NCBI GenBank assembly: GCA_017883965.1
Contig: JAFNKG010000003.1
Coordinates: 20,784 to 68,956, forward strand
Source: Candidatus Methanophagales archaeon
Lineage (GTDB): Archaea; Halobacteriota; Syntropharchaeia; Alkanophagales; Methanospirareceae
DNA length: 48,173 bases
Reading direction: 5' to 3'
In this document: in pieces, positions 11,460 through 44,361 of the stretch
Numbering within the stretch: the stretch's first letter is position 1
Layout: every line of letters starts with the position of its first letter
Position numbers and translations under genes: made by a program
The notes under the pieces: model-generated
The model's database searches: none
What the model was told of the DNA's origin: nothing
Seen by the model: the letters and a program-made list of their open reading frames with translations, nothing else

Positions 11460-12038
11460 TTATTCTGGAGCACATGTGAGATGACAATTAGTGCACTGTG
11501 TGTGAGAAGTAACACCGTCATGAACACACTGGTTCAACGTGGGATTATAAGATTCCGGTGCATGGCAAGATGTGCAGTCAGCATTGTCTGGCAGTTCGAT
11601 GTCCGGATTCTTATGACACAAAAGACAGTAATCCTCTTGATCCTCATGTACCGTTGGCAGATTTGTCAAATGACATTGCGTACAAAATGCTTCTGTGGAG
11701 GTGTGCTTTGTATCCATGTTCATGTGATAAGCTACGGGTTCCCCTGATGGGGTATGACATGAAAGGCAATCATAAGACTTCGCTAAATAGTCATAGAGAC
11801 CTCTGCGCCCTGTGGGATGGCAAATATAGCATCCAGTTCGATCAGTTGACCACGATTCATCGTGGATTGCTGTTAAACTGGTACCATGACATACTGTACA
11901 CTCTCCTGTGGGGGAAGTATGTTGCATTCCTCCACCACCTCCACCTCTGCTCCAGGTCGTACCTACAACTAAAGACGCTGTAAACAATGCTATAACGATA
12001 CACAACGCTATTTTCTTTCCCTTATTTTTCATTTTCAT
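11460..12038 (-). CDS. Small multihaem cytochrome c with seven CxxCH sites, 192 aa
   Basis: A signal peptide (KIALCIVIALFTASLVVG) is followed by seven haem-binding sites: CTVCH, CYICH, CLSCH, CTQCH, CLLCH, CTSCH and CTNCH. It is therefore an extracytoplasmic electron carrier, about 19 kDa before haem. Multihaem cytochromes in ANME archaea are thought to pass electrons to partner bacteria. It is the first gene of a two-gene operon with the beta-helix protein, transcribed leftward from a box near 12158-12168 with a leader of roughly 95 bases. Several other histidines (HMNMDTKH, HDGVTSH) could serve as distal ligands. The lack of a membrane anchor suggests a free or surface-associated protein. 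Confidence 0.93.
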   Translation of the reverse strand: MKMKNKGKKIALCIVIALFTASLVVGTTWSRGGGGGGMQHTSPTGECTVCHGTSLTAIHDESWSTDRTGCYICHPTGRRGLYDYLAKSYDCLSCHTPSGEPVAYHMNMDTKHTSTEAFCTQCHLTNLPTVHEDQEDYCLLCHKNPDIELPDNADCTSCHAPESYNPTLNQCVHDGVTSHTQCTNCHLTCAPE

Positions 12039-12212: not shown

Positions 12213-14981
12213 TTATTTCAAATCCAACCGAGAAGCAACCGTCATCGTCAAATCCTCTATTTGTATTTTATCTTTACACAGTTCAGGATTTGACGCATAG
12301 GCGCAGTCGAGATGTATCCAGCATTTTGGACACGCCACAACCAGTTTAGATGCTTTAGTCTGCTTAGCCTCGGTCAACCGTTCAATTTGCATCTCTCTCG
12401 CTACCGGACCACAGGTCAACAAAGCACTTACACCACAGCATATCGCTCTTTCCTTATTATGCGCCATCTCCTTTATTTTTACGCCGGGAATTCTCTTTAA
12501 AACCTCTCTTGAGGCATCGAAATTACCCAAATGCCGTAATCTGCATGGGTCATGATAAGTAATAATCTCCTCGCTTCCGTTAACAAATTTCAAGTCTTTA
12601 TCTTTTAAGAATTCCGAGATATGCATGACTTCAAATCCTGAATCGCCCGAAAATCGCCGATAGTCTCTATCAAAAGTTCTGAGACATTCTGCGCATGTAA
12701 AAACAACCGTTTTCGCTCCACTTTCCCTTATCACCGCTATATTCGCCTTCATCAACTCTTTGAATCTCTTCTCATCTCCAGCCCATAGTAAATCATGACC
12801 ACAGCACTTCTCCTCTTTGCTCACCGCTGGAACAATCCCAGTAGAATTAAGTATCTTTACCGCACTCCTTGCTATTTCAAGCAACCTCAAATTTTTCCTG
12901 TCGCCATACACTCTATCGAGATATGCAAGACAACCCGAGAAATAGTAAACATCGCCCTTATCCGAAACTTTCAGTTCCTCACCGCTTCCTTCTCCTTCTC
13001 CCACGAGCCACTTCAGCCTATTGCTATCGCTATCACTGGCATCAGCACCTATTTCTTCAGTAGCTAATAGCCCGGCTTCAAAGAAGTGCGGCACGCTGTT
13101 TTTACTTAATGCTAAGCTTCTCACACCCTGGATAAAACTCAGGAAATCCACGCCGTAAGGACAAATCGCATTGCATATACCACACGTGGTGCACAACCAG
13201 ATTTCCTCGCTTAACGCCAATTTCTCTGCGTCTTCCATCAATGCTCTGCCAGAAAGACGTCTTGGTGAGAAGCCCGGGTCTATTGCCGTTACAGGACATG
13301 AAGCGGTGCACTCTCCACATTCCGCGCATTTATTCACGCCCGTAGCATAAGTTAACCCCTCCATAAATCCAGATGCATCTATTTCCTCACGTTCTTCTTC
13401 AGGCTCCACTTTCACAGTCGGAAACGTTAAAAGACAGCTTCTACATTTGAAACATCTTTCCGTTTCATCAACCGCCGCAGCGTCTTCTGAGAACCCGATG
13501 TTTATCTCTTTGAAACTCTGTATCCGCTCTTCCATTCCGATTCTTTCCGATTCTCTTCTTCTTTTCTTGCTTAATATCCCTTTCTCTTCCTCAGCCTCTA
13601 ACTCTTCCTTTATGTATTCCACCGCCTCAGGTCGCTCTTCAGGAATTTTTGGCGAAGTCCTGCCTTCTTTTAAATCCACAACCCTTAAGAACCTGTCAAT
13701 AGATCCCGCAGCCTCGTTACCATCTGCGATGGCATCAACGGCAAATGCCGCACCACGAACGCAATCGCCACCTGCAAATATACCTTCCTCTGTGGTAATA
13801 CCAAACTCATCTGCTTTTATCGCTCTCCCCTTTATTGTCTCAACCCCACTGCCCTCAAGAAATCGTAAATCTGATGCCTGACCTATCGCAGGTATCACCG
13901 TGTCCACATCTATCAAGAACTTTGAACCTTCGATGGGGACTGGACGCCTCCTCCCTGATTCATCCGGCGCTCCTAACTTCATCTGGATAAGTTCCATTTT
14001 CTCTACCCTGTCTGCGCCCAAAATCCGCGTTGGATTGGCTAAGAACATAAATTTCACGCCCTCTTCCTCTGCCTCCTTTATCTCTTCCTCCCTCGCTGGC
14101 ATCTCTTCTCTCGACCTTCTATAAACAATCGTAACGTCAGAACCAGAACCCTGTCGAATCGCACATCTCGCAGCGTCTATCGCTACGTTTCCACCGCCTA
14201 CGACTGCTATTTTCTTTCCTGCTACTTCCTCATGATTATTCCCAAGGTTAAAATCACGAAGGAAATCAACACCGTGCACTACACCATCCAAATCCTCACC
14301 CTCTATTTCAAGTTTCCTGCTTACGTGCGCACCAACGGCAATAAAAACTGCATCGTACTCATTGCGAATCTCTTCAAATTTATTCTCATCTATTTCCACC
14401 CCGGACTCTATCGCTATTCCCGTTCCCTTAACATCGTCAATTTCTCTTTTTAAAACTTTTTTTGGCAGTCTATAAGCAGGAATACCAGCAAAAAGCATTC
14501 CTCCTTCCACAGCCAATTTATCAAATACTTTTACTGAATATCCTCTCATCACCAACCGATACGCCGCTGTCAGTCCCGCCGGACCCGCACCAATAATAGC
14601 AATTTTTTTCGCTTTCGCTTCACTCCTCTCTACCAAAGGCTCCTCCTCTCTTCCCTTTTCCGATGCATGGTCGCCAACGAATCGTTTTAAGGGTGCGATA
14701 GCAACAGGCTCATCAAAAAACCCCCGCTTGCAATTATCCTCACAGGGATGATGACAGATTCGTCCAATAGAAGCAGGAAAAGGTATTTTCTCTTTTATTA
14801 GCAAATACGCTTCCTCATACCTGCCCTCTTCTATCAGTTTGAGGTACCCCTGAACGTCACAACCTGCTGGACAGGCAGAAATACATCTCGGCACTTCTCT
14901 ATCTATGCCAAAACCTTCTTCGGAATGTAAATATTCCTTGAACCGGGCATAACGTTCGAGCATAAGCATAATTGACCTCAC
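12213..14981 (-). CDS. Fusion of GltD-like flavin oxidoreductase with HdrC-like and HdrB/D-like domains, 922 aa
   Basis: Residues 1-500 are a GltD/NfnB-type module: cysteines 33, 37, 41, 76, 80 and 84 for iron-sulfur clusters, an FAD site at IIGAGPAGLTAA (129-140) and an NAD(P)H site at VVGGGNVAIDA (260-270) followed by VYRRSREEMPA. Around 512 is CFKCRSC, then two ferredoxin motifs (CAECGECTASCP near 551; CTTCGICNAICP near 596), as in HdrC. The last 240 residues hold two CCG domains with GC, CCGH, CAEC (682-766) and DPCR, CCGV, CPKC (812-885), as in HdrB/HdrD or GlcF. It lies 69 bp downstream of metF. I infer that it carries electrons between NAD(P)H or ferredoxin, a disulfide-type centre and MetF. 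The ATG at 14969, after a GAGGT site, is the more likely start than the GTG at 14981. Confidence 0.88.
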   Translation of the reverse strand: MRSIMLMLERYARFKEYLHSEEGFGIDREVPRCISACPAGCDVQGYLKLIEEGRYEEAYLLIKEKIPFPASIGRICHHPCEDNCKRGFFDEPVAIAPLKRFVGDHASEKGREEEPLVERSEAKAKKIAIIGAGPAGLTAAYRLVMRGYSVKVFDKLAVEGGMLFAGIPAYRLPKKVLKREIDDVKGTGIAIESGVEIDENKFEEIRNEYDAVFIAVGAHVSRKLEIEGEDLDGVVHGVDFLRDFNLGNNHEEVAGKKIAVVGGGNVAIDAARCAIRQGSGSDVTIVYRRSREEMPAREEEIKEAEEEGVKFMFLANPTRILGADRVEKMELIQMKLGAPDESGRRRPVPIEGSKFLIDVDTVIPAIGQASDLRFLEGSGVETIKGRAIKADEFGITTEEGIFAGGDCVRGAAFAVDAIADGNEAAGSIDRFLRVVDLKEGRTSPKIPEERPEAVEYIKEELEAEEEKGILSKKRRRESERIGMEERIQSFKEINIGFSEDAAAVDETERCFKCRSCLLTFPTVKVEPEEEREEIDASGFMEGLTYATGVNKCAECGECTASCPVTAIDPGFSPRRLSGRALMEDAEKLALSEEIWLCTTCGICNAICPYGVDFLSFIQGVRSLALSKNSVPHFFEAGLLATEEIGADASDSDSNRLKWLVGEGEGSGEELKVSDKGDVYYFSGCLAYLDRVYGDRKNLRLLEIARSAVKILNSTGIVPAVSKEEKCCGHDLLWAGDEKRFKELMKANIAVIRESGAKTVVFTCAECLRTFDRDYRRFSGDSGFEVMHISEFLKDKDLKFVNGSEEIITYHDPCRLRHLGNFDASREVLKRIPGVKIKEMAHNKERAICCGVSALLTCGPVAREMQIERLTEAKQTKASKLVVACPKCWIHLDCAYASNPELCKDKIQIEDLTMTVASRLDLK

Positions 14982-15050
14982 ACTTTAAAGTTCAACCAAA
15001 TCAAAATAAAAAAGAAAAAAGGGGAGAGAAAAAAAGTATTTCTCAAGTTT

Positions 15051-15971
15051 TTACTCCATCACTTTCTTAAGTGGTGCAATTATCCTGGGATACCCAACAG
15101 CCATCATGTGGCATCCAGCCGCCGGTGTTCCTTTTAGATGCTCCAGAAAACCCGTAAAGAATTCTACGTTGATCCTGTCCACCTCTTCCTTCTTCTTCTC
15201 CTTATCCTTTATCTGCTTCGACGCCTTCATGTTCTCTAAATAATCCGGTGGAACATCCACACCAGCCACATATTTATCGAAGAAATCTGCCTGTCCAAAA
15301 GTCCTCGCCGGAAATATCCCAACCAGAATCGGAACGTCCACCTTCCCCAGCTCTTTAAAGAACTTATCCAGAACCTCTGGGTAGTAAACGACCTGTGTTT
15401 GTATGTATTCCGCGCCAACCTTGATTTTTCTCTTTACCTTGGCAACTTCAGCCTGCAAATACGCCGCTCCGGGTGCCGCTGCACCTCCCACATGTAGTTT
15501 CGGCGGGTTATGTATTTCATTGCCTCCGAGGTCCTTGCCCTCGTCCACCACTTTCCTTATCATGGCAATAAGCGTGGTTGAGTCCAGATCGAATACAGGC
15601 TTCGCATCCGGTGTATCACCAAGCGATACGTGGTCGCCTGCTAACGCTAAGATATTCTTTAATCCCAGTACGCCGGCACCAAGCACATCGGATAGAAGCG
15701 CCATACGATTTCTGTCCGCACACCTGAGCTGGTATACGCACTCCATACCCGTTTCTTTTTGGATTTGATACGACGCCGCCAGGCTACTAACGTAAGCGAA
15801 ACTCTGTGGATTGTCCGTCACGTTACAGGCTGTCACCAAACCCACCAGCTCTTTTGCCATTTCAATCGGCTCATTCACGTCGCCCGCTTTTTCCGGCTCT
15901 AACTCACCTGTGAAGACATATTCCCCTTCCTTTAATTCTTTCATCAACTGGCTATAAACTTCGTCACCCAT
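15051..15971 (-). CDS. metF: MetF-type methylene-tetrahydropterin reductase, 306 aa
   Basis: The protein is a TIM-barrel reductase of the 5,10-methylene-tetrahydrofolate reductase family. The TGELEPEKAGD start, ACNVTDNP, LRCADRNRMAL, NILALAGDHVSLGD and VGIFPARTFGQADF segments follow the family plan of catalytic Glu near the N-terminus and FAD-binding loops. In canonical methanogens this step uses Mer, an unrelated F420 enzyme; ANME-1 is known for lacking Mer and having MetF. Here it would interconvert methylene- and methyl-tetrahydromethanopterin, which is inference because the pterin is not visible in sequence. It follows metV by 22 bp with an AAAGGAG site and precedes the GltD/Hdr fusion. 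Confidence 0.92.
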   Translation of the reverse strand: MGDEVYSQLMKELKEGEYVFTGELEPEKAGDVNEPIEMAKELVGLVTACNVTDNPQSFAYVSSLAASYQIQKETGMECVYQLRCADRNRMALLSDVLGAGVLGLKNILALAGDHVSLGDTPDAKPVFDLDSTTLIAMIRKVVDEGKDLGGNEIHNPPKLHVGGAAAPGAAYLQAEVAKVKRKIKVGAEYIQTQVVYYPEVLDKFFKELGKVDVPILVGIFPARTFGQADFFDKYVAGVDVPPDYLENMKASKQIKDKEKKKEEVDRINVEFFTGFLEHLKGTPAAGCHMMAVGYPRIIAPLKKVME

Positions 15972-15993
15972 TTTTTTTCATCACACTCCTTTT

Positions 15994-16743
15994 TTATTCC
16001 TCAAGCTTTGGTTTCGGACCGAATTTATAAGTCAGCATCCCCATGCCAGCCCCAATCATATCCATCCCAACGGGCTCTTCTATCTCGAACAGCCGTGGTC
16101 TCTTCGCTTTACCCCATTCGTGTGGGTCTCGCATTTCTATGAATTTATCGAGTTCGCCAAGTTTCTCCATTCGCTTATAGATCTTAACCCATGCGCAGTC
16201 CTTTTCCTCGTCTATTTCGCATTTGTCATCAACTCGCACTCCTCCACAAGGACCGTTCATCAATCCCTTTCCGCACGATGTCAACGGACAGATGCCCGCA
16301 GTTTTGCCTAATTCACACATTCCACATGACTGACAGGTCTCCTTGAACTTTTTAGGACCACCACCTACAAGCCCTAATGCATCGTTTGCAGGAATTATGG
16401 GCTTCGTAATACCCATTTTTTCGTCTGTATATTCGGTCACTACTTGCACACCATCGCCGCAACTCATCAGTAAAAGTGCATCGCGATTCTCAAGCTCCTT
16501 TCGGTTCTTTTCCAGCCACACCCCGCTCTTCTCAATATCACAGGCTTGAAAACTGAAAGGCAGAACGATTAGGAGGACATCCTTTCCTTCTTTCGTAAGT
16601 TTCTCAGCCATATCATTCACCGCTTTTTTGTCACCGGTATGATAGAACGTAGCGCATCCCCCGCAGCCCATTACTACTACTTTCTGTTTTCCATCGAGGT
16701 AACCCAGAATCTCTTCCATAGGCTTTTGCTCTTGTGCAATCAT
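15994..16743 (-). CDS. metV: MetV, zinc/iron-sulfur partner of MetF, 249 aa
   Basis: This matches the MTHFR C-terminal-like family found with MetF in acetogens. Key features are GCGGCATF near residue 27, an Fe-S or zinc cysteine set CQSCGMCELGKTAGICP (about 137-153) and CGKGLMNGPCGG (about 157-168), then C-x6-C. In acetogens MetV binds MetF and is needed for its activity and for passing electrons. It is first in a leftward operon metV-metF-GltD/Hdr. A GGAGG site lies upstream, but the first ATG after it opens a two-codon frame (ATG ATA TGA) that overlaps the true start. Confidence 0.9.
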   Translation of the reverse strand: MIAQEQKPMEEILGYLDGKQKVVVMGCGGCATFYHTGDKKAVNDMAEKLTKEGKDVLLIVLPFSFQACDIEKSGVWLEKNRKELENRDALLLMSCGDGVQVVTEYTDEKMGITKPIIPANDALGLVGGGPKKFKETCQSCGMCELGKTAGICPLTSCGKGLMNGPCGGVRVDDKCEIDEEKDCAWVKIYKRMEKLGELDKFIEMRDPHEWGKAKRPRLFEIEEPVGMDMIGAGMGMLTYKFGPKPKLEE

Positions 16744-16858: not shown

Positions 16859-17845
16859 ATGACGTTACCTCTGCCTGATGTGCAAGCGAACAGTCCGGAC
16901 ATAAAAATAAACCTGACGAGGGTGGGTGTAAAAAATGTGAAGAAATTGGTGGAGGTAGCGAGAGCTGGCGGAAAAAGACCTGTAATTCTTATATCGGATT
17001 TCCACATCTTCGTGGACCTCCCAAGTGATATAAAAGGAGCAAATCTTTCAAGAAATTTCGAGGCAATGTATGAAGTGCTGGAAGAAGCGGTTAGCACGCC
17101 GATATACGAGGTGGAGGAGTTGTGCAGTGAAGTAGCAAAGCGGTTACTCTTTCTCCACGAATACGCTTCTACCGCTGAAGTAGGAATGAAAAGCGAGTAT
17201 ATGTTAAAAAGGAAAACGCCTATAATGAAGATTTCCTGTCAAGAGCCTGCAACTATCTTCGCTGAGGCGAAAGCTTTTCGTAACTCCTCGAATGACAAAA
17301 AAAGCGGCGTGCGAATTAAAAAAATAATAGGCGCAGAGATTGTAGGAATGACCACATGTCCTTGCGCACAGGAGCTAATGAGGGATAAAGTAGCAGAAGA
17401 ACTGACGAGGATGGGAATAGCCAAAAAGGAAATGAACGCTTTTTTGAATACCATACCTCTGGCAACACATAATCAAAGAGGTAGAGGTATAATATCCATA
17501 GAGGTAGAAGATGATGTTAAAGTCCCTATGGAGAAGATAATAAATGTAATAGAGAAATCAATGAGTACTAAAACGTATGAAATCTTGAAGCGCCCGGATG
17601 AGGCGGAACTTGTGGAAATTGCACATAAAAAGCCCATGTTTGTTGAAGATTGCGTTCGCGAGATGGCGAAGCGAGTGGTAGAAACTTTTAATGACCTCCC
17701 TGACGATTCTATCATTACTATAAAGCAGATAAACGAGGAGAGTATCCATCAGCACGATGCCGTTGCAGAGCGAGTTGCTTCTATCGGCGACCTGCGAAGG
17801 GAGTTAAAAGAAGGAAATGCGGAGTTGAAAGCCGGGGTGGCCTAG
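16859..17845 (+). CDS. mptA: GTP cyclohydrolase MptA (COG1469/FolE2 family), 328 aa
   Basis: It opens the ring of GTP to give 7,8-dihydroneopterin 2',3'-cyclic phosphate, the first step of methanopterin synthesis. Family marks include LPDVQ at the start, [39 protein letters not shown] and THNQRGRG. The length fits. The enzyme normally uses Fe(II) bound by Cys/His/Glu residues. The last five codons and the stop lie inside the tRNA-Met gene: the stop TAG at 17843-17845 is made of tRNA bases, so transcription of the two must be coordinated. A methanopterin gene beside the metF operon fits C1 metabolism. Confidence 0.92.
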
Positions 17846-29919: not shown

Positions 29920-30348
29920 ATGGAAGAAGCGAAAGAGGGATTTGAGCCAAAAATAATCGGATTTACCTGTAATTGGTGTACGTATGCCGGAGCAGACCTT
30001 GCAGGGACGTCTCGAAAGAAATACCCACCGAACATTCGGATAATAAGGCTTATGTGCTCAGGGAGGTTAGATCCGATGTTTGTGCTCAAAGTGTTATTAA
30101 ATGGTGCGGATGGTGTTTTCATTGGGGGCTGTCATCCCGGGGAGTGTCATTATATAAAAGGGAACTTCTATGCCAGACGCAGGATAGCGGCATTGAGGAC
30201 TATCCTGAAGCAGTTCGGGCTGGATGACCGGGTTAGATCAGAGTGGATCAGCGCATCCGAGGGTGATAAGTTTGCGAGAGTGATGAAGGAGATGGCGGAG
30301 GACATAAAGAAATTGGGACCTAATCCTATGAGGGACAAGATACTATGA
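29920..30348 (+). CDS. mvhD: MvhD, [2Fe-2S] electron-transfer subunit, 142 aa
   Basis: It links an electron donor to HdrA. Family marks: IIGFTCNWCTYAGADLAG (C at 11 and 14 of the mature start), RIIRLMCSGRLDP, and GGCHPGECHYIKGN near residue 70; these cysteines bind one [2Fe-2S] cluster. The gene is first in an operon with an FrhB/FdhB-like gene and hdrC, hdrB and hdrA, overlapping the next by 4 bp (ATGA). No hydrogenase genes are nearby, so the donor is probably F420H2 through the FrhB-like partner. The frame opens at a GTG (29911), but ATG at 29920 sits behind GGGTGA and is likelier. Confidence 0.92.
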   Translation: MEEAKEGFEPKIIGFTCNWCTYAGADLAGTSRKKYPPNIRIIRLMCSGRLDPMFVLKVLLNGADGVFIGGCHPGECHYIKGNFYARRRIAALRTILKQFGLDDRVRSEWISASEGDKFARVMKEMAEDIKKLGPNPMRDKIL

Positions 30349-31412
30349 AAGGAACAGAACTAAAACAAGAGGATTTGGAAGGGTTATTTAAGGGATTGCT
30401 CGATAAGAAAGCAGTGGATTGTCTGGTATTGCCGCATAAAGTGGGTAACAACGTGGCATACATGCTGGTAAAGGACGGGGATAAGATAGAATCGCCAGCA
30501 GCGTCGGCTATTTTCGCACCTTCGTTCGGAGTAAACGCAGCAAATATCGTGAAGGGATGGACGATACCGGAGAGAGTAGGAATTGTGGCGAAACCCTGTG
30601 AGATACGGGCAGCAATAGAGTTGATAAAACTAAAGCAGATGGACAAGGAGAGTGTGCTTCTGATAAGTGCGGATTGTTCGGGTGCCTTCACGAATCAGGA
30701 TTATGCAGACCACGCAGGGGAGATAGGTGACTGGGTGGACAGTGCGAAGATAAATGAACTGAAAGGTAAAGGGATTGCGATACGAGAAGCCTGTGCAATC
30801 TGTGAGAATCGGCTTGCAGACGTTGGAGATATAATTATTGAACGTGTGGACGGAGGAAAGGTGCTGGTTGCGGGAATAACGGACATGGGCGATGAGGCAT
30901 TGTCAAGCACGGAACTGTCGCTGGAAGATAAGGACGTGGAAAGACAGGCTGAGAAAGAGAAGATAGCTGCGGATGCGAAGAAGGAGAAAGAGGAACTGCC
31001 AAAAATGAGCAGCGTGGAAGAGTTAGAAGAGTTCCTGAGGGACTGTATAGCGTGCAAGAACTGCCGTGATATGTGTCCGGTATGTTATTGCAAGGAATGT
31101 TTCTTTGAACAACCTCTGGGGAAACCCGTCGGTGGGGATTTATTGAACTTAGCAGAGCTGCGGAGTGCGATAGGTGTGCCAACAAATCAACTGTTATACC
31201 ATCTCACGAGGATTTATCATGTCTGCACGACGTGTGTTGGATGTGGAGCCTGTGAAGACGCATGTCCGAAGGACATACCACTGACGAGGCTATATCCGCT
31301 GATTGCGAAAAAGGTGCAGGAAATATTCGAGTATGTGCCAGGAGAGGATGCTGAAGAGCCGCTACCGTTTATTACATACGAAGAAGAAGAGCTGGAAGAC
31401 AAATTAAGATAA
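30345..31412 (+). CDS. F420-linked FrhB/FdhB-like flavoprotein with two ferredoxin motifs, 355 aa
   Basis: The N-terminal 200 residues match the coenzyme F420 hydrogenase/dehydrogenase beta family (VGIVAKPCEIRAAIEL and ISADCSGAF, CAICENRLADVGD), which binds FAD and reacts with F420. Then comes an acidic linker and CIACKNCRDMCPVCYCKECFF (about 228-248), and CTTCVGCGACEDACPK (about 294-310). The arrangement is closer to FdhB than to FrhB. In this operon it would connect F420/F420H2 to MvhD and HdrABC. Which partner (formate, F420 or another) is inferred from context; no fdhA is in the window. Confidence 0.85.
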   Translation: MKGTELKQEDLEGLFKGLLDKKAVDCLVLPHKVGNNVAYMLVKDGDKIESPAASAIFAPSFGVNAANIVKGWTIPERVGIVAKPCEIRAAIELIKLKQMDKESVLLISADCSGAFTNQDYADHAGEIGDWVDSAKINELKGKGIAIREACAICENRLADVGDIIIERVDGGKVLVAGITDMGDEALSSTELSLEDKDVERQAEKEKIAADAKKEKEELPKMSSVEELEEFLRDCIACKNCRDMCPVCYCKECFFEQPLGKPVGGDLLNLAELRSAIGVPTNQLLYHLTRIYHVCTTCVGCGACEDACPKDIPLTRLYPLIAKKVQEIFEYVPGEDAEEPLPFITYEEEELEDKLR

Positions 31413-31413
31413 A

Positions 31414-32019
31414 ATGATAAAGACATGGGAACTGGACGCGAACTTCAGGAATGAGATAATGAACGAGCCCGGGGGCGAGCATCTTTCGGCGTGTTTCCAG
31501 TGCAGCACGTGCACGATAGGATGCCCGATTGCGGAAATCGTGCCGAGTTACAATCCGAGAAAAATCATCCAGATGAGCCTGCTGGGTATGCGAGAGGATG
31601 TTCTGTCAAATCCAGATTTATGGATTTGTGCTATCTGTCAGACGTGCACGGCGCGATGCCCACAAGACGTGCGGATTAGCGATTTGCTGGCTGCGATAAG
31701 GCGAATAGCAGAGAAAGAGGAGGAAGCGGGCAAGTTGAAGGTAGATAGCGTTAGACCACTATTTGAAAAGGCTTTTCTGCATCAATTAGAGAAGTACGGT
31801 CGGCTCTTTGATATGGGACTTGCAATGGAATATTACAAGGGAAAAGAAGGAGGGTCGTTCATTAAAGGGCAATTAGCAATGATGAAGGATTTCAAGGATT
31901 TCGGAATGCGGATGTTCAAGAAAGGGAAAATGGGACCGAAGGCAATGTTCCCGGAGAAAGTGAAGAAAAAGGAAGAGATAGAGAAGATTTTCGAGAAGGT
32001 GGGAGAGAAGGAGAAATGA
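31414..32019 (+). CDS. hdrC: HdrC, iron-sulfur subunit of heterodisulfide reductase, 201 aa
   Basis: Two [4Fe-4S] motifs are visible: CFQCSTCTIGCPI (about residue 27) and CAICQTCTARCPQ (about 70). It carries electrons from HdrA to HdrB. It begins directly after the FrhB-like gene and overlaps hdrB by 4 bp. The C-terminus after residue 120 is basic and longer than in short HdrC forms, with KYGRLFDMG. The protein is soluble, in line with the cytoplasmic HdrABC type. Confidence 0.93.
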   Translation: MIKTWELDANFRNEIMNEPGGEHLSACFQCSTCTIGCPIAEIVPSYNPRKIIQMSLLGMREDVLSNPDLWICAICQTCTARCPQDVRISDLLAAIRRIAEKEEEAGKLKVDSVRPLFEKAFLHQLEKYGRLFDMGLAMEYYKGKEGGSFIKGQLAMMKDFKDFGMRMFKKGKMGPKAMFPEKVKKKEEIEKIFEKVGEKEK

Positions 32020-32882
32020 GCGAAAAGAAACTTGCATACTACCCGGGATGTCCATCAGCAACGACGGCGATAGAGCAGGATATGTCAACAAAAGCAGTGT
32101 TTGAGAAATTGGGGATTGAACTGTCGGAGATGGAGGACTGGAACTGCTGCGGAGCGGCGGAAGCAGAGGACCCGATATTAGTTTATGCATTAAATGCGAG
32201 GAATCTTGCTATTGCCGAAAAGGACGGGCTGGATATTGTAACACCATGCAGTATATGTTATTATAATTTAGCGAGGACAGACAAGGCGTTGAGGGAAGAT
32301 GAGGGCTTACGTGCGGAGATGAAGGATATTGATAGTTCGCTTGAGTACAAAGGGACAATAAAGCCGAAACATATACTGGACGTCCTCGTAAATGAGATAG
32401 GCATGGATGAATTGTCAGGTAAGGTAGAGAAGAAAGTAAACGTGAAGGTAGCACCGTATTATGGTTGTTATATAGGGAGACCAAGTGAGACGGCTTTTGA
32501 TGACCCTGACGATCCGGATTTGATGGACAGGTTGATAGAGTTGATAGGAGGAGAAAACGTTCAGTTCAGTAGCATGAAGACGAAGTGCTGTGGAGGACCG
32601 CTGATGATGACGAGAGAGGATATAGCATTTGAGATGGCGAGGAAGGTACTGGAGTCGGCGAAGAACGCTGGTGCGGACTGTATTGCACTTGCATGTCCAC
32701 TGTGCGGCATGATGCTGGATGCGAAGCAGCCCGATATAGAAAAGAAGTTAGACATCAAGGTAGAAATGCCGGTAGTTTATATATCGCAGTTGTTGGGTCT
32801 CGCGCTTGGGATAGCGCCAGGTAAACTCGGTCTTAATAAAAATGTCGTATCCACGAAAGAAATTCTTGGGAAGGTGATATAA
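32016..32882 (+). CDS. hdrB: HdrB, catalytic subunit of heterodisulfide reductase, 288 aa
   Basis: It acts on CoM-S-S-CoB or the free thiols. Two CCG domains are present: GCPS, then NCCG near residue 44, then TPCSICYYN near 80; and YGCYIG near 149, then KCCGGPLMM near 190, then CPLCGMMLD near 229. These cysteines bind the two noncubane [4Fe-4S] clusters. It overlaps hdrC by 4 bp and touches hdrA with no gap. In an organism running methanogenesis backwards it would oxidise CoM-SH plus CoB-SH. Confidence 0.94.
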   Translation: MSEKKLAYYPGCPSATTAIEQDMSTKAVFEKLGIELSEMEDWNCCGAAEAEDPILVYALNARNLAIAEKDGLDIVTPCSICYYNLARTDKALREDEGLRAEMKDIDSSLEYKGTIKPKHILDVLVNEIGMDELSGKVEKKVNVKVAPYYGCYIGRPSETAFDDPDDPDLMDRLIELIGGENVQFSSMKTKCCGGPLMMTREDIAFEMARKVLESAKNAGADCIALACPLCGMMLDAKQPDIEKKLDIKVEMPVVYISQLLGLALGIAPGKLGLNKNVVSTKEILGKVI

Positions 32883-35600
32883 ATGGGAATAGCGATTATT
32901 GGAGGAGGCGTTGCAGGGATAACAGCAGCTCTTGACCTCGCGGATTCCGGGTTCAAAGTATATTTAATAGAGAAGAATGCGGAACTCGGCGGTAAGATGG
33001 CGGAGCTTGCGGAATGCAAGACCGGGTTATCACCGAAGATAGTGGAAATAGAAAATCATCCGAACATAGAGCTGTTGTTGTCAAGCGAGTTAGAGAGTTT
33101 ATCCGGGTCGGCGGGAGAGTTCAAGTTGAACGTGTCGGGTAATGAGATAGAAGCGGAGAGCGTGGTGCTGGCACCGGGATACGATGTCTTCGATGAGATA
33201 CCGAAGAGTTATGCAATAGCGAATCCGGATGTTGTCACCTCGTTAGAGTTTGAAGGTATGCTCAGGAGTGCGACTGCGAGTGAGACCGGGGAATTGCTGC
33301 GACCATCAGATGGTAAGCGGGTAAAAAAGATAGGTTTTATCCAGTGTATCGGGTCGAGATGTCAGGAGAACGAGATATGCTCGACAGCGTGCTGTGCGTA
33401 CACGGCGAAAGAGGCGTGGGAAGTGAAGGAAAGATACCCTGACATGGATGTTTGCGTCTTCTACATGGATATAAGAGTGTTTGGCAAGGATGAGGAACTG
33501 GCGGCAGAGTTAAAGGATAAATATGGCGTAAAGTACATAAGGTCGAGGGTTCCGGAGGTGATACCGGAGAATGGAGCCCTATCAGTTAAGTTTGAGAATT
33601 TAGAGAAAGGGACGATTGATAAACTTGACCTTGATATGGTGGTTCTTGCAGTTGGTCTTCTGCCATCGAAGACATTAAGCAGGCTTGCGGAAATAACGGG
33701 TGTAAAAACTGATAAATACGGTTATATTGAGACGAGTATCACGAACCCGCTGGAGACCAATGTCGAGGGTCTGTTCGCATGTGGAACGGCAACAGCGCCG
33801 ATGAAGGTTCGAGAAAGTGTTGCGCAGGCAAGTGGTGCGGCATTAAAAGCAGCGCTTCTTTCAGAGAGAACGGAGATGATTCCCGGGCAGGAGGAGCGTA
33901 AATACGTTGAAGCAGGCGAGGAGCCGAAGATAGGTGTTTTTATATGCGGTTGTGAAGGCGAAGTAAGGGACTGCGTAGATATACCTGCGGTTGCGGAACG
34001 GGTGAGCCAACTGAAGGATGGTGTTTTTGTGAACAGCGAGACGAACACAATGGAAGAGGCGATGGAAGCAATAGAGAGTGGAATAGTGGACCAGGGGTTG
34101 AACAGGATTGTATTTGCGGGATACACGCCGAGAAAGTATGAGGATACAGTCAGGGATAGATGCGCAAAGGCGGGGTTGAATCCTTATTTAATGGAGATGG
34201 TGAACTTAAGGGAGCAATGTGCGTGGGTGCACGAGCCAAAGGAAGCGACGGAATCGGCGGCTGGTTTGATAGCCATGGCAGTAGAGCGAGCGAGGTATCT
34301 TGAAGAGATTCCGGTCGAGAGGTATCCGGTGATACCGAAAGCACTTGTTATCGGCGGTGGTGTGTCAGGGATGAATGCGGCGCTTGGTATTGCAGATGCA
34401 GGCTATGAAGTATATTTAGTGGAGAAAGAGCCGGAGTTAGGTGGCAGTTTGCGAGAAGAAATAGGGTTACAGAGCGGCGAGAAATCTTCTGACGTTTTAA
34501 CAGAATTTGTTGATAAAGTAAGCAGTAACGAGCGGATAAATGTATATACGAATGCTAAGGTAGAGGATGTGACGGGAAGAGCAGGTTCGTTTAAGGCGAA
34601 GATAGCCGGAGAGGGAGCAAACGAGGATATAGATTTCGGTGCTTGTATAATTGCGACCGGAACGGATGAATCCGTGCCTGAAGGTTACTATGGCTATGGT
34701 AAAGATAAGAATGTGGTAACGCAACCAGAGTTTGGGAAGATGCTGGGAGGTACATTATCCGCGAACACGGTTGTTATGATCCAGGATGTGGGACCGGATG
34801 GAGGCGTGAATCCAAAGTATGGCAGTATCGAATTGATGAATAATGTGTTAAAAGCGAAGGAGAAGAACCCTGATTTGAATGTGTTCGTGCTGTACCAGGA
34901 CATTAAGACATACGGTAAGTGGGAAGTGCTATACAAAGAGGCGCGAGAAAAAGGAGTGATATTCCTCAGATACGATAAGGATAAGCCGCCAAAATATGAA
35001 GATGGGATTGTTTCGGTCCATGATGTGATATTAAACGATGAGATACAGATAAAGCCTGATTTGCTGGTGCTCAGCACGCCGGCGATGCCCGCAGAGGAGA
35101 ACGAGCGACTGAGCAAGATGTTCAAGATTCCTTTGAAAAACGGGTTCTTCTTAGAGGCGCAGGAGCGACCAAAGATGAAGTTAACACCTGTTGACACGGT
35201 GAACGAGGGAGTGTTCATCTGTGGTTCTGCAGTTTATCCCGCACTGATAGATGAGTGCATTGCGATGAGCAGTGCAGCAGCATCGAGGGCATGTGTGTTA
35301 TTAGCAAAAGATTTCCTCGAGACGCCTGCGGTGACTTCGGTGGTTGACGAGCTGATATGTTCAGGCTGCGGCGTGTGTGTGGATATGTGTCCGGTTGAGG
35401 CGATAGAGTTGACCGAGGAGCCAGTGCCTGTGGTTACTTTCGGCGTGGCGACGGTGATAGGCGGAACGAAGAGGATTGCGAAGGTCAATGATGGATGTAT
35501 GGGTTGCGGAAGTTGTGCTTCTTATTGCCCCTCAGGAGCGATGTCGTTGAAGCATTTCCGGGATAAGCAGGTTTACGCTCAGTTGGATTATGCGGTGTAG
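32883..35600 (+). CDS. hdrA: Double HdrA (two flavin modules in one chain), 905 aa
   Basis: Two FAD-binding Rossmann sites are present: IIGGGVAGITAAL at residues 4-16 and VIGGGVSGMNAAL at about 490-502. The first module keeps QCIGSRC...CSTACCAYTA (about 155-180) but lacks the N-terminal iron-sulfur domain and the inserted ferredoxin. A domain resembling the HdrA N-terminus (IGVFICGCEG) lies near 358. The second module has lost the matching cysteines. Two ferredoxins end the protein: CSGCGVCVDMCP (about 824) and CMGCGSCASYCP (about 870). HdrA flavin splits or joins electron pairs. A double form might hold two flavins of different potential; this is inference. Confidence 0.9.
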   Translation: MGIAIIGGGVAGITAALDLADSGFKVYLIEKNAELGGKMAELAECKTGLSPKIVEIENHPNIELLLSSELESLSGSAGEFKLNVSGNEIEAESVVLAPGYDVFDEIPKSYAIANPDVVTSLEFEGMLRSATASETGELLRPSDGKRVKKIGFIQCIGSRCQENEICSTACCAYTAKEAWEVKERYPDMDVCVFYMDIRVFGKDEELAAELKDKYGVKYIRSRVPEVIPENGALSVKFENLEKGTIDKLDLDMVVLAVGLLPSKTLSRLAEITGVKTDKYGYIETSITNPLETNVEGLFACGTATAPMKVRESVAQASGAALKAALLSERTEMIPGQEERKYVEAGEEPKIGVFICGCEGEVRDCVDIPAVAERVSQLKDGVFVNSETNTMEEAMEAIESGIVDQGLNRIVFAGYTPRKYEDTVRDRCAKAGLNPYLMEMVNLREQCAWVHEPKEATESAAGLIAMAVERARYLEEIPVERYPVIPKALVIGGGVSGMNAALGIADAGYEVYLVEKEPELGGSLREEIGLQSGEKSSDVLTEFVDKVSSNERINVYTNAKVEDVTGRAGSFKAKIAGEGANEDIDFGACIIATGTDESVPEGYYGYGKDKNVVTQPEFGKMLGGTLSANTVVMIQDVGPDGGVNPKYGSIELMNNVLKAKEKNPDLNVFVLYQDIKTYGKWEVLYKEAREKGVIFLRYDKDKPPKYEDGIVSVHDVILNDEIQIKPDLLVLSTPAMPAEENERLSKMFKIPLKNGFFLEAQERPKMKLTPVDTVNEGVFICGSAVYPALIDECIAMSSAAASRACVLLAKDFLETPAVTSVVDELICSGCGVCVDMCPVEAIELTEEPVPVVTFGVATVIGGTKRIAKVNDGCMGCGSCASYCPSGAMSLKHFRDKQVYAQLDYAV

Positions 35601-42189: not shown

Positions 42190-44361
42190 ATGGTAGAGGA
42201 AGGATATGATTATACAAAAATCCCGATGACGGGATCGGTAGAAGGAGTTGCGGCTGATGCACCGGAGGAAGCACCGAGGATTGGCATTTATATATGCCAT
42301 TGCGGAATAAACATAAAGATGGTATTGAATGTAGTGGACGTTATGAATTATGCGGCGAAGTTGCCGAATGTTGCTCTTGTCCGGCACTATATATTTGTGT
42401 GTTCAGACCCGGGGCAATCGCTAATAAAAGAGGACCTTAAAGCGGGTAAAGTAAACAGGGTGATAGTGGCTGCCTGTTCTCCAAGGATGCACGAGCTAAC
42501 ATTCAGAAAGACATGTAGTGGTGAAGGTCTTAATCCTTACTACTTCGAGATGGCGAATATAAGAGAGCATTGTAGCTGGCCACACGTGGATTATAAGGAA
42601 GAAGCGATGGAGAAGGCGAAGGAATTGATAAGGAGTGCGGTTGCAAGAAGTTCATTATTAGAGCTAATTGAGGAGAAGGAGGTTGAAGTCAATCCGGAAG
42701 CATTGATAATAGGCGGTGGCATAACCGGGATGTATGCGGCATTGGATATAGCGAATGCCGGCTATAAGGTACATCTTGTGGAGAGGAAACCGTCTATTGG
42801 TGGGCACGTGGCGCAATTGAACAAGACGTTCCCAACACTGGATACTACCGCTTCTCTTTTAACGCCGAGAATGATAGACGTTGGAGCACATCCGAACATA
42901 AATCTGATGGCATATTCCGAGGTTGAAGATATAGAAGGCTACGTTGGTAATTATGAGGCGAAAGTGAAGAGGAAGCCGAGATACGTGGATGAGGCAAAAT
43001 GCACGGGATGTGGCTTATGTGCCGAGGCATGCCCGGTGAAAAATGTACCGAATGAATTCGACGAGGGGTTGAGTAAGAGAAGTGCCATTTACATACCTTT
43101 CCCGTTTGCAGTTCCACCTGTTTATACGGTTGACGCAGAACATTGCTCGTTGCTAAAAGAGGGTAAATGTGGTAATGCGACACTTGAGGGTGTTAAAGAA
43201 GGTAAAGAAGTTCCACCTTGTATGGCGGCATGCAGTCCGGGAGCGATAGATTTCGGGCAAATAGAGGAGACGGACGAGTTGACCGTGGGCACAATTATAG
43301 TAGCAACCGGTTATGACATCGTGGACCCGACAGTATCGTCAGAATACAAGCATGGTGTATATCCAAATGTAATTACAGGATTAGAGTTTGAGCGGTTGGC
43401 ATCACCGAGTGGTCCTACGGGTGGAAAGATAGAGATAAACGGAAAAGAGCCGAAGGATGTTATTTTTATAAGTTGTGTCGGGTCGAGGAATAAGCAAGTG
43501 GGAAATGAATACTGCTCTCGTGTATGCTGTATGTATATAGCGAAACAGTCGCATTTAGTAAAGGATACACTGCCGGACGCAAACGTAACAGTGTGCTATC
43601 AAGATGTGAGAGCGTTTGGTAAAGGCTTCGAGGAGTTTTACGGTGATACGAAGAGGGAGGGCGTTTTCTATTTAAGAGGACTTCCGGGAGAGATATACAA
43701 AAAACCGGGCAGTGATAGAGTGGTAGTGCGTGGCGAAAATACAATGCTCGGAGAGCCGTATGAGCGAGAAGCGGACCTTGTGGTGCTTGGCGTAGGAATG
43801 AAGCCCAATGAGGGCGTGTGGGACATAGTAAAGATGCTGAAACTGTCACAATCTCCAGACCAGTTCTTATTAGAAGCGCATCTCAAACTCAGACCGGTTG
43901 ACACGGCAACAGATGGCGTATTTATCGCGGGATGCTGTGCAGGTCCAAAGGATATACCAGAAAGTATATATCAAGGAAAAGCAGCGGCTTCTGGTTCTCT
44001 CGTCTATTTAGTTTTGACGAAGGCAAAATTGGAGCCTACAATATCAGAGATAAACGTGGAAGTTTGCATTGGATGCCGGTGTTGCGAAGAGATTTGTCCG
44101 TTTGGTGCACTTGTGTTTGACGATGAGATAAGAGTAATGACGGTAAACGAAGCGGTTTGCAAGGGCTGTGGCGGTTGTAATTCGATATGTCCTTCAGGAG
44201 CAGCGACAATGAAGCATTTCCGCGACAGACAGGTATATGCGCAGATAGAGGCGTTGACGCAGATAGGAATGCCGGTGGTTGAGATTGCGGGGGCAGAAGC
44301 AGGCACAGCTACAGAAACAGGTGAAGCAGAGAGTGCAGAAGCGGAGCAGAGTGCGGAGTGA
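42190..44361 (+). CDS. hdrA: HdrA with full domain set but altered flavin-side cluster, 723 aa
   Basis: The N-terminal IGIYICHCGINI (about 31-42) and IVAACSPRMHE domain, the FAD site IIGGGITGMYAAL (about 174-186), the inserted CTGCGLCAEACP (about 273) and the late ferredoxins CIGCRCCEEICP (about 623) and CKGCGGCNSICP (about 654) are all there. In place of DCSxC next to the flavin it has LDTTASLLTP (about 216-225), so those cysteines are lost. An acidic Glu/Ala tail ends the protein. The GAGGAGGTG site is strong. The mate upstream keeps the lost cysteines but lacks other clusters. Confidence 0.92.
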   Translation: MVEEGYDYTKIPMTGSVEGVAADAPEEAPRIGIYICHCGINIKMVLNVVDVMNYAAKLPNVALVRHYIFVCSDPGQSLIKEDLKAGKVNRVIVAACSPRMHELTFRKTCSGEGLNPYYFEMANIREHCSWPHVDYKEEAMEKAKELIRSAVARSSLLELIEEKEVEVNPEALIIGGGITGMYAALDIANAGYKVHLVERKPSIGGHVAQLNKTFPTLDTTASLLTPRMIDVGAHPNINLMAYSEVEDIEGYVGNYEAKVKRKPRYVDEAKCTGCGLCAEACPVKNVPNEFDEGLSKRSAIYIPFPFAVPPVYTVDAEHCSLLKEGKCGNATLEGVKEGKEVPPCMAACSPGAIDFGQIEETDELTVGTIIVATGYDIVDPTVSSEYKHGVYPNVITGLEFERLASPSGPTGGKIEINGKEPKDVIFISCVGSRNKQVGNEYCSRVCCMYIAKQSHLVKDTLPDANVTVCYQDVRAFGKGFEEFYGDTKREGVFYLRGLPGEIYKKPGSDRVVVRGENTMLGEPYEREADLVVLGVGMKPNEGVWDIVKMLKLSQSPDQFLLEAHLKLRPVDTATDGVFIAGCCAGPKDIPESIYQGKAAASGSLVYLVLTKAKLEPTISEINVEVCIGCRCCEEICPFGALVFDDEIRVMTVNEAVCKGCGGCNSICPSGAATMKHFRDRQVYAQIEALTQIGMPVVEIAGAEAGTATETGEAESAEAEQSAE

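Follow-up and report, generated by a model that had tools for sequence, protein, structure and literature searches.

The window analyzed here, a whole stretch of 48,173 nucleotides on contig C75 of a Candidatus Methanophagales archaeon, belongs to a 2.48-Mb genome that is 93% complete and that its closest named relatives place in ANME-1 (Methanophagales) (G000; genomes, contigs and loci carry our G, C and L numbers). Its minus strand carries three consecutive, co-directional open reading frames (ORFs): metV, metF and, directly 3′ of them as the initial annotation had placed it, an ORF for a protein that joins GltD-, HdrC- and HdrB-type modules in one chain. The features of this fusion protein are as follows.

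14981-12213, minus strand: GltD-HdrC-HdrB fusion, 922 amino acids as an ORF, with Pfam and NCBIfam domains and orthologues in about 20 Methanophagales genomes.
13680..14900, minus strand: GltD/NfnB/StnC-like module (residues 28-434) with two predicted [4Fe-4S] sites and predicted flavin adenine dinucleotide (FAD) and NADP(H) sites.
13434..13454, minus strand: CxxCxxC (C510-C513-C516), permuted equivalent of the RCxxC at the NfnB N terminus.
13149..13337, minus strand: HdrC-like dicluster module (residues 549-611, Fer4_8), matched by sequence to the HdrC chains of 9sfi, 7bkb and 5odc.
12306..12950, minus strand: HdrB-like module (residues 678-892) with two complete CCG motifs.

Pfam searches assigned the domains of MetV and MetF, and Pfam and NCBIfam searches those of the fusion; in the fusion, Pfam places Fer4_20 at residues 30 to 110, Pyr_redox_2 at 126 to 421, Fer4_8 at 549 to 611, and two CCG domains (best stretch, 807 to 892). 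Translation likely starts at ATG 14963 rather than GTG 14981, judging by relatives that begin with M-x-L-E-R. The two CX(n)CCX(n)CXXC motifs have spacers of 41/35/2 and 34/34/2. In an alignment of 16 orthologues with identities down to 52%, all cysteines predicted to bind clusters are invariant: C33, C37, C41, C76, C80 and C84; C510, C513 and C516; C552-C562 and C597-C607; and the CCG sets 684, 726, 727, 763, 766 and 813, 848, 849, 884, 887. These domains and ligands bear out the initial annotation of a single protein with an NAD(P)H/FAD module, ferredoxin domains and two CCG domains. The full-length AlphaFold2 model was weak (predicted local distance difference test score [pLDDT], 64; predicted template modelling score, 0.43) and was used for the Rossmann part only. 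The C-terminal half, re-modelled with a better alignment, reached a pLDDT of 86, and Foldseek matched the model to HdrB (8rvy_B and 5odc_B), EtfD (9ojn) and also LutA, which supports an HdrB fold for this half.

The GltD module is closest to the structures of NfnABC, StnC and NfnB (PDB 9n5u, 9bov, 8oh5, 5jca, and 4ylf). The N-terminal stretch of NfnB that carries RCxxC (5jca_L) aligns to fusion residues 480 to 513, i.e., in a permuted position. K99 is the counterpart of K170 in StnC, which there coordinates the FAD-proximal cluster; NfnB carries Glu instead (PMC10482914). K99 is invariant, and the Glu ligand at the FAD-proximal [4Fe-4S] cluster is not present in any of the 16 aligned fusions. 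R171 corresponds to R187 of Thermotoga maritima NfnB and R201 of the Pyrococcus furiosus protein, the Arg that binds N5 of the bifurcating FAD (b-FAD) (PMC6405883, PMC10482914). Since StnC, which is non-bifurcating at this flavin, retains the same residue as R239 (PMC10482914), R171 was rejected as proof of bifurcation. An Arg pair for NADPH (YRRSR or YRRTR) is found in the Methanophagales fusions, whereas VCVEAR replaces it in the fusions of the sister family, which hints that the latter may use NADH.

The fusion thus shares with StnC of the Stn transhydrogenase (PMC10482914) and with NfnABC (PDB 9n5u and 9bov) the GltD module, the Lys at the proximal cluster and the NADPH-binding Arg pair; the proximal Lys and the permuted C-terminal CxxC are StnC-type features. 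In StnC, NuoG-like domains follow GltD, whereas the fusion lacks this C-terminal part and has HdrC and HdrB in its place. A related GltD module occurs in HdrA9/10/11 of ANME-1, HdrA proteins with an NfnB-like insert that were described by Chadwick et al. in 2022 (PMC9012536), where the word GltD does not appear in the main text. Residues 30 to 517 of the fusion are 60% identical to an HdrA-inserted GltD copy on G000 contig C29; in HdrA9/10/11, GltD is inserted in HdrA, while in the fusion it is joined to HdrCB without HdrA. With HdrD and other HdrCB-type proteins (also TfrB and EtfD), the fusion shares a pair of ferredoxin-type clusters ahead of two CCG domains and an HdrB fold, but it adds an N-terminal NADPH/FAD module, and no membrane HdrE partner was seen at the locus. 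HdrDE has been reported absent from all ANME-1 (PMC9012536). A limited literature search found no published description of a GltD-HdrC-HdrB fusion.

The genes beside the fusion, and the element that separates it from metF, are listed here.

16743-15994, minus strand: metV, 249 amino acids, Fe-S/Zn partner of MetF (DUF5981/MTHFR_C; Pfam DUF5981 E value, 2.5e-28).
15971-15051, minus strand: metF, 306 amino acids, methylene-tetrahydropterin reductase (Pfam MTHFR PF02219 E value, 7.9e-29).
15003..15044, minus strand: terminator-like hairpin (15044-15026) and T-tracts (15020-15003).
16859..17845, plus strand: folE2/GCHY-1 gene, divergent from metV (PF02649 E value, 1.5e-76).

MetV carries an NGPCGG domain and Cys residues for two Fe-S/Zn sites; 12 Cys are invariant among 11 MetV proteins, bacterial ones included (C27, C30, C68, C95, C137, C140, C143, C152, C157, C166, C175, and C183), and a phmmer search of MetV against PDB gave no match. 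MetF, a barrel protein with metV directly upstream and thus a MetVF-type reductase, is encoded by the sole PF02219 gene found in G000. A role of MetF in tetrahydrofolate biosynthesis was rejected on the basis of the literature only, in which the tetrahydrofolate genes are reported missing from ANME-1 (PMC9012536). Mer (TIGR03555) was not found in G000, and Fno (TIGR01915) gave no match above the cut-off there, which agrees with the proposal of the initial annotation that a complex with MetV and MetF takes the place of Mer. Among 50 genomes of the same family, Mer and Fno were both above the cut-off only in G015, which has neither metF nor the fusion; this Methanophagales genome is similar to ANME-1 described in the literature as putative methanogens. 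The folE2/GCHY-1 gene is a conserved neighbor of the main ANME-1 metVF locus (also in L002, L033, L040, L041, and L048). Downstream of the fusion, at 11460-12038 (minus strand), lies a gene for a small protein that resembles cytochrome c7 and has several CxxCH motifs.

The initial annotation had assigned the fusion to a metVF operon. Proximity alone was rejected as proof of an operon. The 69-bp gap between metF and the fusion contains a GAGAAA/TTTCTC stem, present in the window and in G023, followed by T6-C-T6. In relatives without an adjoining fusion (G052, G047, G049, G048, G034, G004, G018, and others), a GGGGA..TCCCC-type hairpin followed by T-tracts lies 3′ of metF, and the stem of the window and G023 occupies the same position. 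Judged by eye for covariation and by single-sequence folds, the hairpin and T-tract read as the transcription end of metF, kept in place before the fusion with both sides of the stem changed to match. No comparable hairpin was seen after metF in L039, L040, L049, and L054, and a different one was seen in L053. Most relatives carry such a hairpin and T-tract 3′ of metF, with or without the fusion as the following gene. The hairpin and T-tract between the two genes argue against a single transcription unit.

A search of 58 genomes of the class detected the fusion, full-length or partial, in 23, of which 21 belong to the family and 2 to its sister family; 21 of these 23 also gave a metF match. 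The fusion adjoins metF in only 4 of the 21 genomes that have both, namely, G000 and G023 of the window's genus and two genomes taken as ANME-1c (PMC9894754, PMC9539880), G033 (“Ca. Methanoxibalbensis ujae,” locus L015) and G032 (AOM70-1, L014). The gene order is therefore not conserved across ANME-1, and the absence of linkage in relatives, on which the initial annotation would have given up its proposal, was largely what we found. In G007, a five-contig genome, fusion and metF lie ∼563 kb apart on one contig; in the other unlinked genomes they are on separate contigs, mostly with 1.8 to 9.5 kb free of metF 5′ of the fusion (G047, G048, G037, G038, and G011 have too little sequence 5′ of the fusion to judge linkage from that side). 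Elsewhere the neighbors of the fusion are diverse and include HypF, XPB helicase, PAC2/NFACT and radical SAM genes. The version in G007 (L055 7207-10251) is longer than the others, at 1,014 amino acids.

In the MetF tree, the window's MetF falls in the main ANME-1 clade, and the linked MetF of G032 and G033 groups with the sister-family MetF (99/98 support); in the fusion tree, G032 and G033 are basal to the other Methanophagales fusions, with the window's genus nested well within. From these placements, the linkage appears to have arisen twice, with two genomes per case, rather than to be a conserved operon.

Other contexts connect the fusion and its parts to Hdr genes. In the sister family (G001 and G002; L058 and L059), the fusion directly adjoins an HdrA pair, a short HdrA and an HdrA6-like protein. 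Genera g2, g5, and g8 have complete or partial frhB-flpD-hdrCB-hdrA(short)-hdrA-mvhD-gltD(long) clusters, in which GltD and HdrCB are separate genes (HdrCB was seen where the contig shows that part). The long unfused GltD (14 genomes) and the fusion (21 genomes) never co-occur among the 50 genomes (hypergeometric P of 8e-5, a statistic that overstates independence, since the split follows genera). No HdrA or MvhD is encoded at the metVF-fusion locus itself. The window's identified hdrA genes lie farther away, with starts at 32883 and 42190: at 30345-35600 (plus strand), a 355-amino-acid Fer4_8 protein, HdrC, HdrB and a 905-amino-acid double HdrA are encoded in a row (hdrC-hdrB-hdrA, 31414-35600), and a further HdrA of 723 amino acids is encoded at 42190-44361 (plus strand). 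On G000 contig C39 (L073 7889-16691), genes for a carbon monoxide dehydrogenase-like protein (PF03063), FrhB, a short HdrA and an 817-amino-acid HdrA run in one direction, with no HdrB or HdrC gene. Either the C39 HdrA pair or the window's hdrC-hdrB-hdrA might supply a partner for the fusion. No NfnA-like gene was found among the ORFs examined at the locus; the remaining genome was not searched for NfnA.

The modules, ligands and gene context can be read from the sequence, and from them we infer transcription, electron direction, substrates and partner. They suggest that the fusion is usually a separate Hdr-type electron-transfer protein rather than a constant component of a bifurcating complex with MetVF. 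We give about an even chance to its being an NADPH-linked HdrCB electron-transfer protein that probably works with partners in trans. It would probably be transcribed separately from metVF. Electrons would pass between NADP(H) and FAD, then to a [4Fe-4S] cluster with Lys at a ligand position and to the second [4Fe-4S] cluster of the GltD module, and from there through two HdrC-type [4Fe-4S] clusters to two HdrB-type non-cubane sites acting on thiol/disulfide. Most likely, the protein would thereby link the NADP(H) pool to Hdr chemistry, at either the coenzyme M and coenzyme B thiols (CoM-SH/CoB-SH) or an HdrA pair docked to it, in an organism that lacks Fno and, according to the literature, HdrDE as well. 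The fusion itself would not bifurcate; an HdrA-type partner in trans would do so. MetVF would separately stand in for Mer as a MetVF-type methylene-tetrahydromethanopterin (methylene-H4MPT) reductase, with the methyl-group electrons passing from the MetF flavin to the MetV Fe-S clusters and on to a partner.

Our evenly balanced confidence in this NADPH-linked role draws on the invariant ligands, the StnC-type Lys, the HdrB fold, the HdrA pair of the sister family, the unfused GltD/HdrCB clusters, the terminator-like element, and the lack of Fno and HdrDE. Several points weigh on the other side. In Methanophagales, no HdrA gene adjoins the fusion, and an HdrA partner acting in trans is therefore conjectural. 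The fusion and the long GltD exclude each other along genus boundaries, which makes the pattern phylogenetically non-independent. The C-terminal fold also occurs in EtfD and LutA, so that the substrate may be something other than CoM-S-S-CoB. Finally, a fusion next to metVF is seen again in ANME-1c, there with a different MetF lineage, a recurrence that would seldom come about by pure chance.

The last point favors a tentative alternative, less probable than the separate role, in which the fusion and MetVF are parts of a single enzyme, a condensed reductase of the Hdr type (type IV). Its GltD module would allow electrons to pass between MetVF and NADP(H), and its HdrCB part would be a second branch or a docking surface. 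The known MetVF enzymes fall into classes according to their partner (none, RnfC2, HdrABC-MvhD, or NuoEFG-like), and those characterized, all from acetogens, are inactive with NAD(P)H alone (PMC8515935, PMC8760232). In Moorella, the MetVF cluster includes HdrBC and an HdrA with a GltD domain, and MetF of Sporomusa pulls down HdrA and HdrB (PMC9430772). The window's locus shares MetV, MetF, HdrB- and HdrC-type modules and, with Moorella, a GltD-type NAD(P)H module with the Hdr-type (type IV/6S) MetVF-HdrABC-MvhD systems of Moorella thermoacetica and Sporomusa ovata. It differs from them in lacking the HdrA core and MvhD, in carrying GltD, HdrC, and HdrB in one chain, and in likely separate transcription; by sequence, its modules are a subset of the known combination. 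GltD-Fer4-FlpD proteins of 692 to 701 amino acids, encoded directly upstream of metV-metF in Planctomycetota (L023 9926-13645 and L026 3127-6867), also speak for one enzyme, as does the same GltD-FlpD type at L025 9929-12865, where a metV match is next and the contig ends before metF. LCLENE in place of YRRSR suggests NADH use in these Planctomycetota proteins. Against one enzyme stand the lack of adjacency in 17 of the 21 genomes with both genes, the terminator-like element, and the absence of HdrA and MvhD from the locus. Other ANME-1 moreover place a second metVF in a full HdrA-FrhB-MvhD cluster. Because the linkage apparently arose twice and has the Moorella and Sporomusa precedent, a functional tie to MetVF is possible in some ANME-1 lineages. 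The specific proposal that MetVF and the fusion are an HdrA-free reductase joining methyl-H4MPT oxidation to NADP+ and a pool of thiols and disulfides, with their genes brought together again on more than one occasion in ANME-1 evolution, strikes us as improbable.

Bifurcation by the fusion itself is very unlikely. By Nfn logic, HdrCB would replace NfnA as the high-potential branch (NADPH + disulfide + oxidized ferredoxin ↔ thiols + reduced ferredoxin, confurcation in methane oxidation). R171 matches the b-FAD Arg and both NfnB-type clusters can form, but the same Arg occurs in non-bifurcating StnC, and the Glu of the low-potential proximal cluster of NfnB is Lys here, as in StnC. The coupling complex of the initial annotation, by bifurcation or confurcation, is weakened by this Lys, by the lack of HdrA and NfnA at the locus, by the terminator-like element and by the rarity of the linkage, while the adjacency in ANME-1c still speaks for it. 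That the fusion moved beside metVF with no functional tie, as its many different neighbors and the metF 3′ element kept between the genes might imply, is equally doubtful, given that in another lineage, whose MetF differs, it again lies on the same strand and directly 3′ of metVF, a second chance hit that we roughly estimate, with no formal test, at well under 1% (∼2,000 genes per genome, ∼9 contexts).

Other ANME-1 genomes hold a stronger candidate than the fusion locus for a complex of MetVF with Hdr proteins, one that would include an F420-type subunit. In three genera, a second metVF heads a nine-gene cluster, metV-metF-hdrA-frhB-hdrA-hdrA-mvhD-hdrA-mvhD (L085 3140-14551 in G047, L086 4052-15494 in G004, and L087 3473-14741 in G013; partial in L047 of G051). 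The second-cluster MetF is 55-57% identical, and no second metF is present in G000. Chadwick et al. reported in 2022 that no ANME-1 genome of their set had MetF clustered with HdrA (PMC9012536). The metVF-hdrA-frhB cluster makes the idea of MetVF bifurcation directly testable. If the pairing of MetVF with the fusion were true, it would be a new type of methylene-H4MPT reductase without HdrA. How electrons return from the ANME-1 MetF step and how CoM-SH and CoB-SH are oxidized without HdrDE have been named as open questions (PMC9012536). For the connection between NADP(H) and Hdr chemistry in this lineage, from which Fno is missing too, the conserved protein that reaches from NADPH to HdrCB in one chain offers a concrete candidate that can be expressed.

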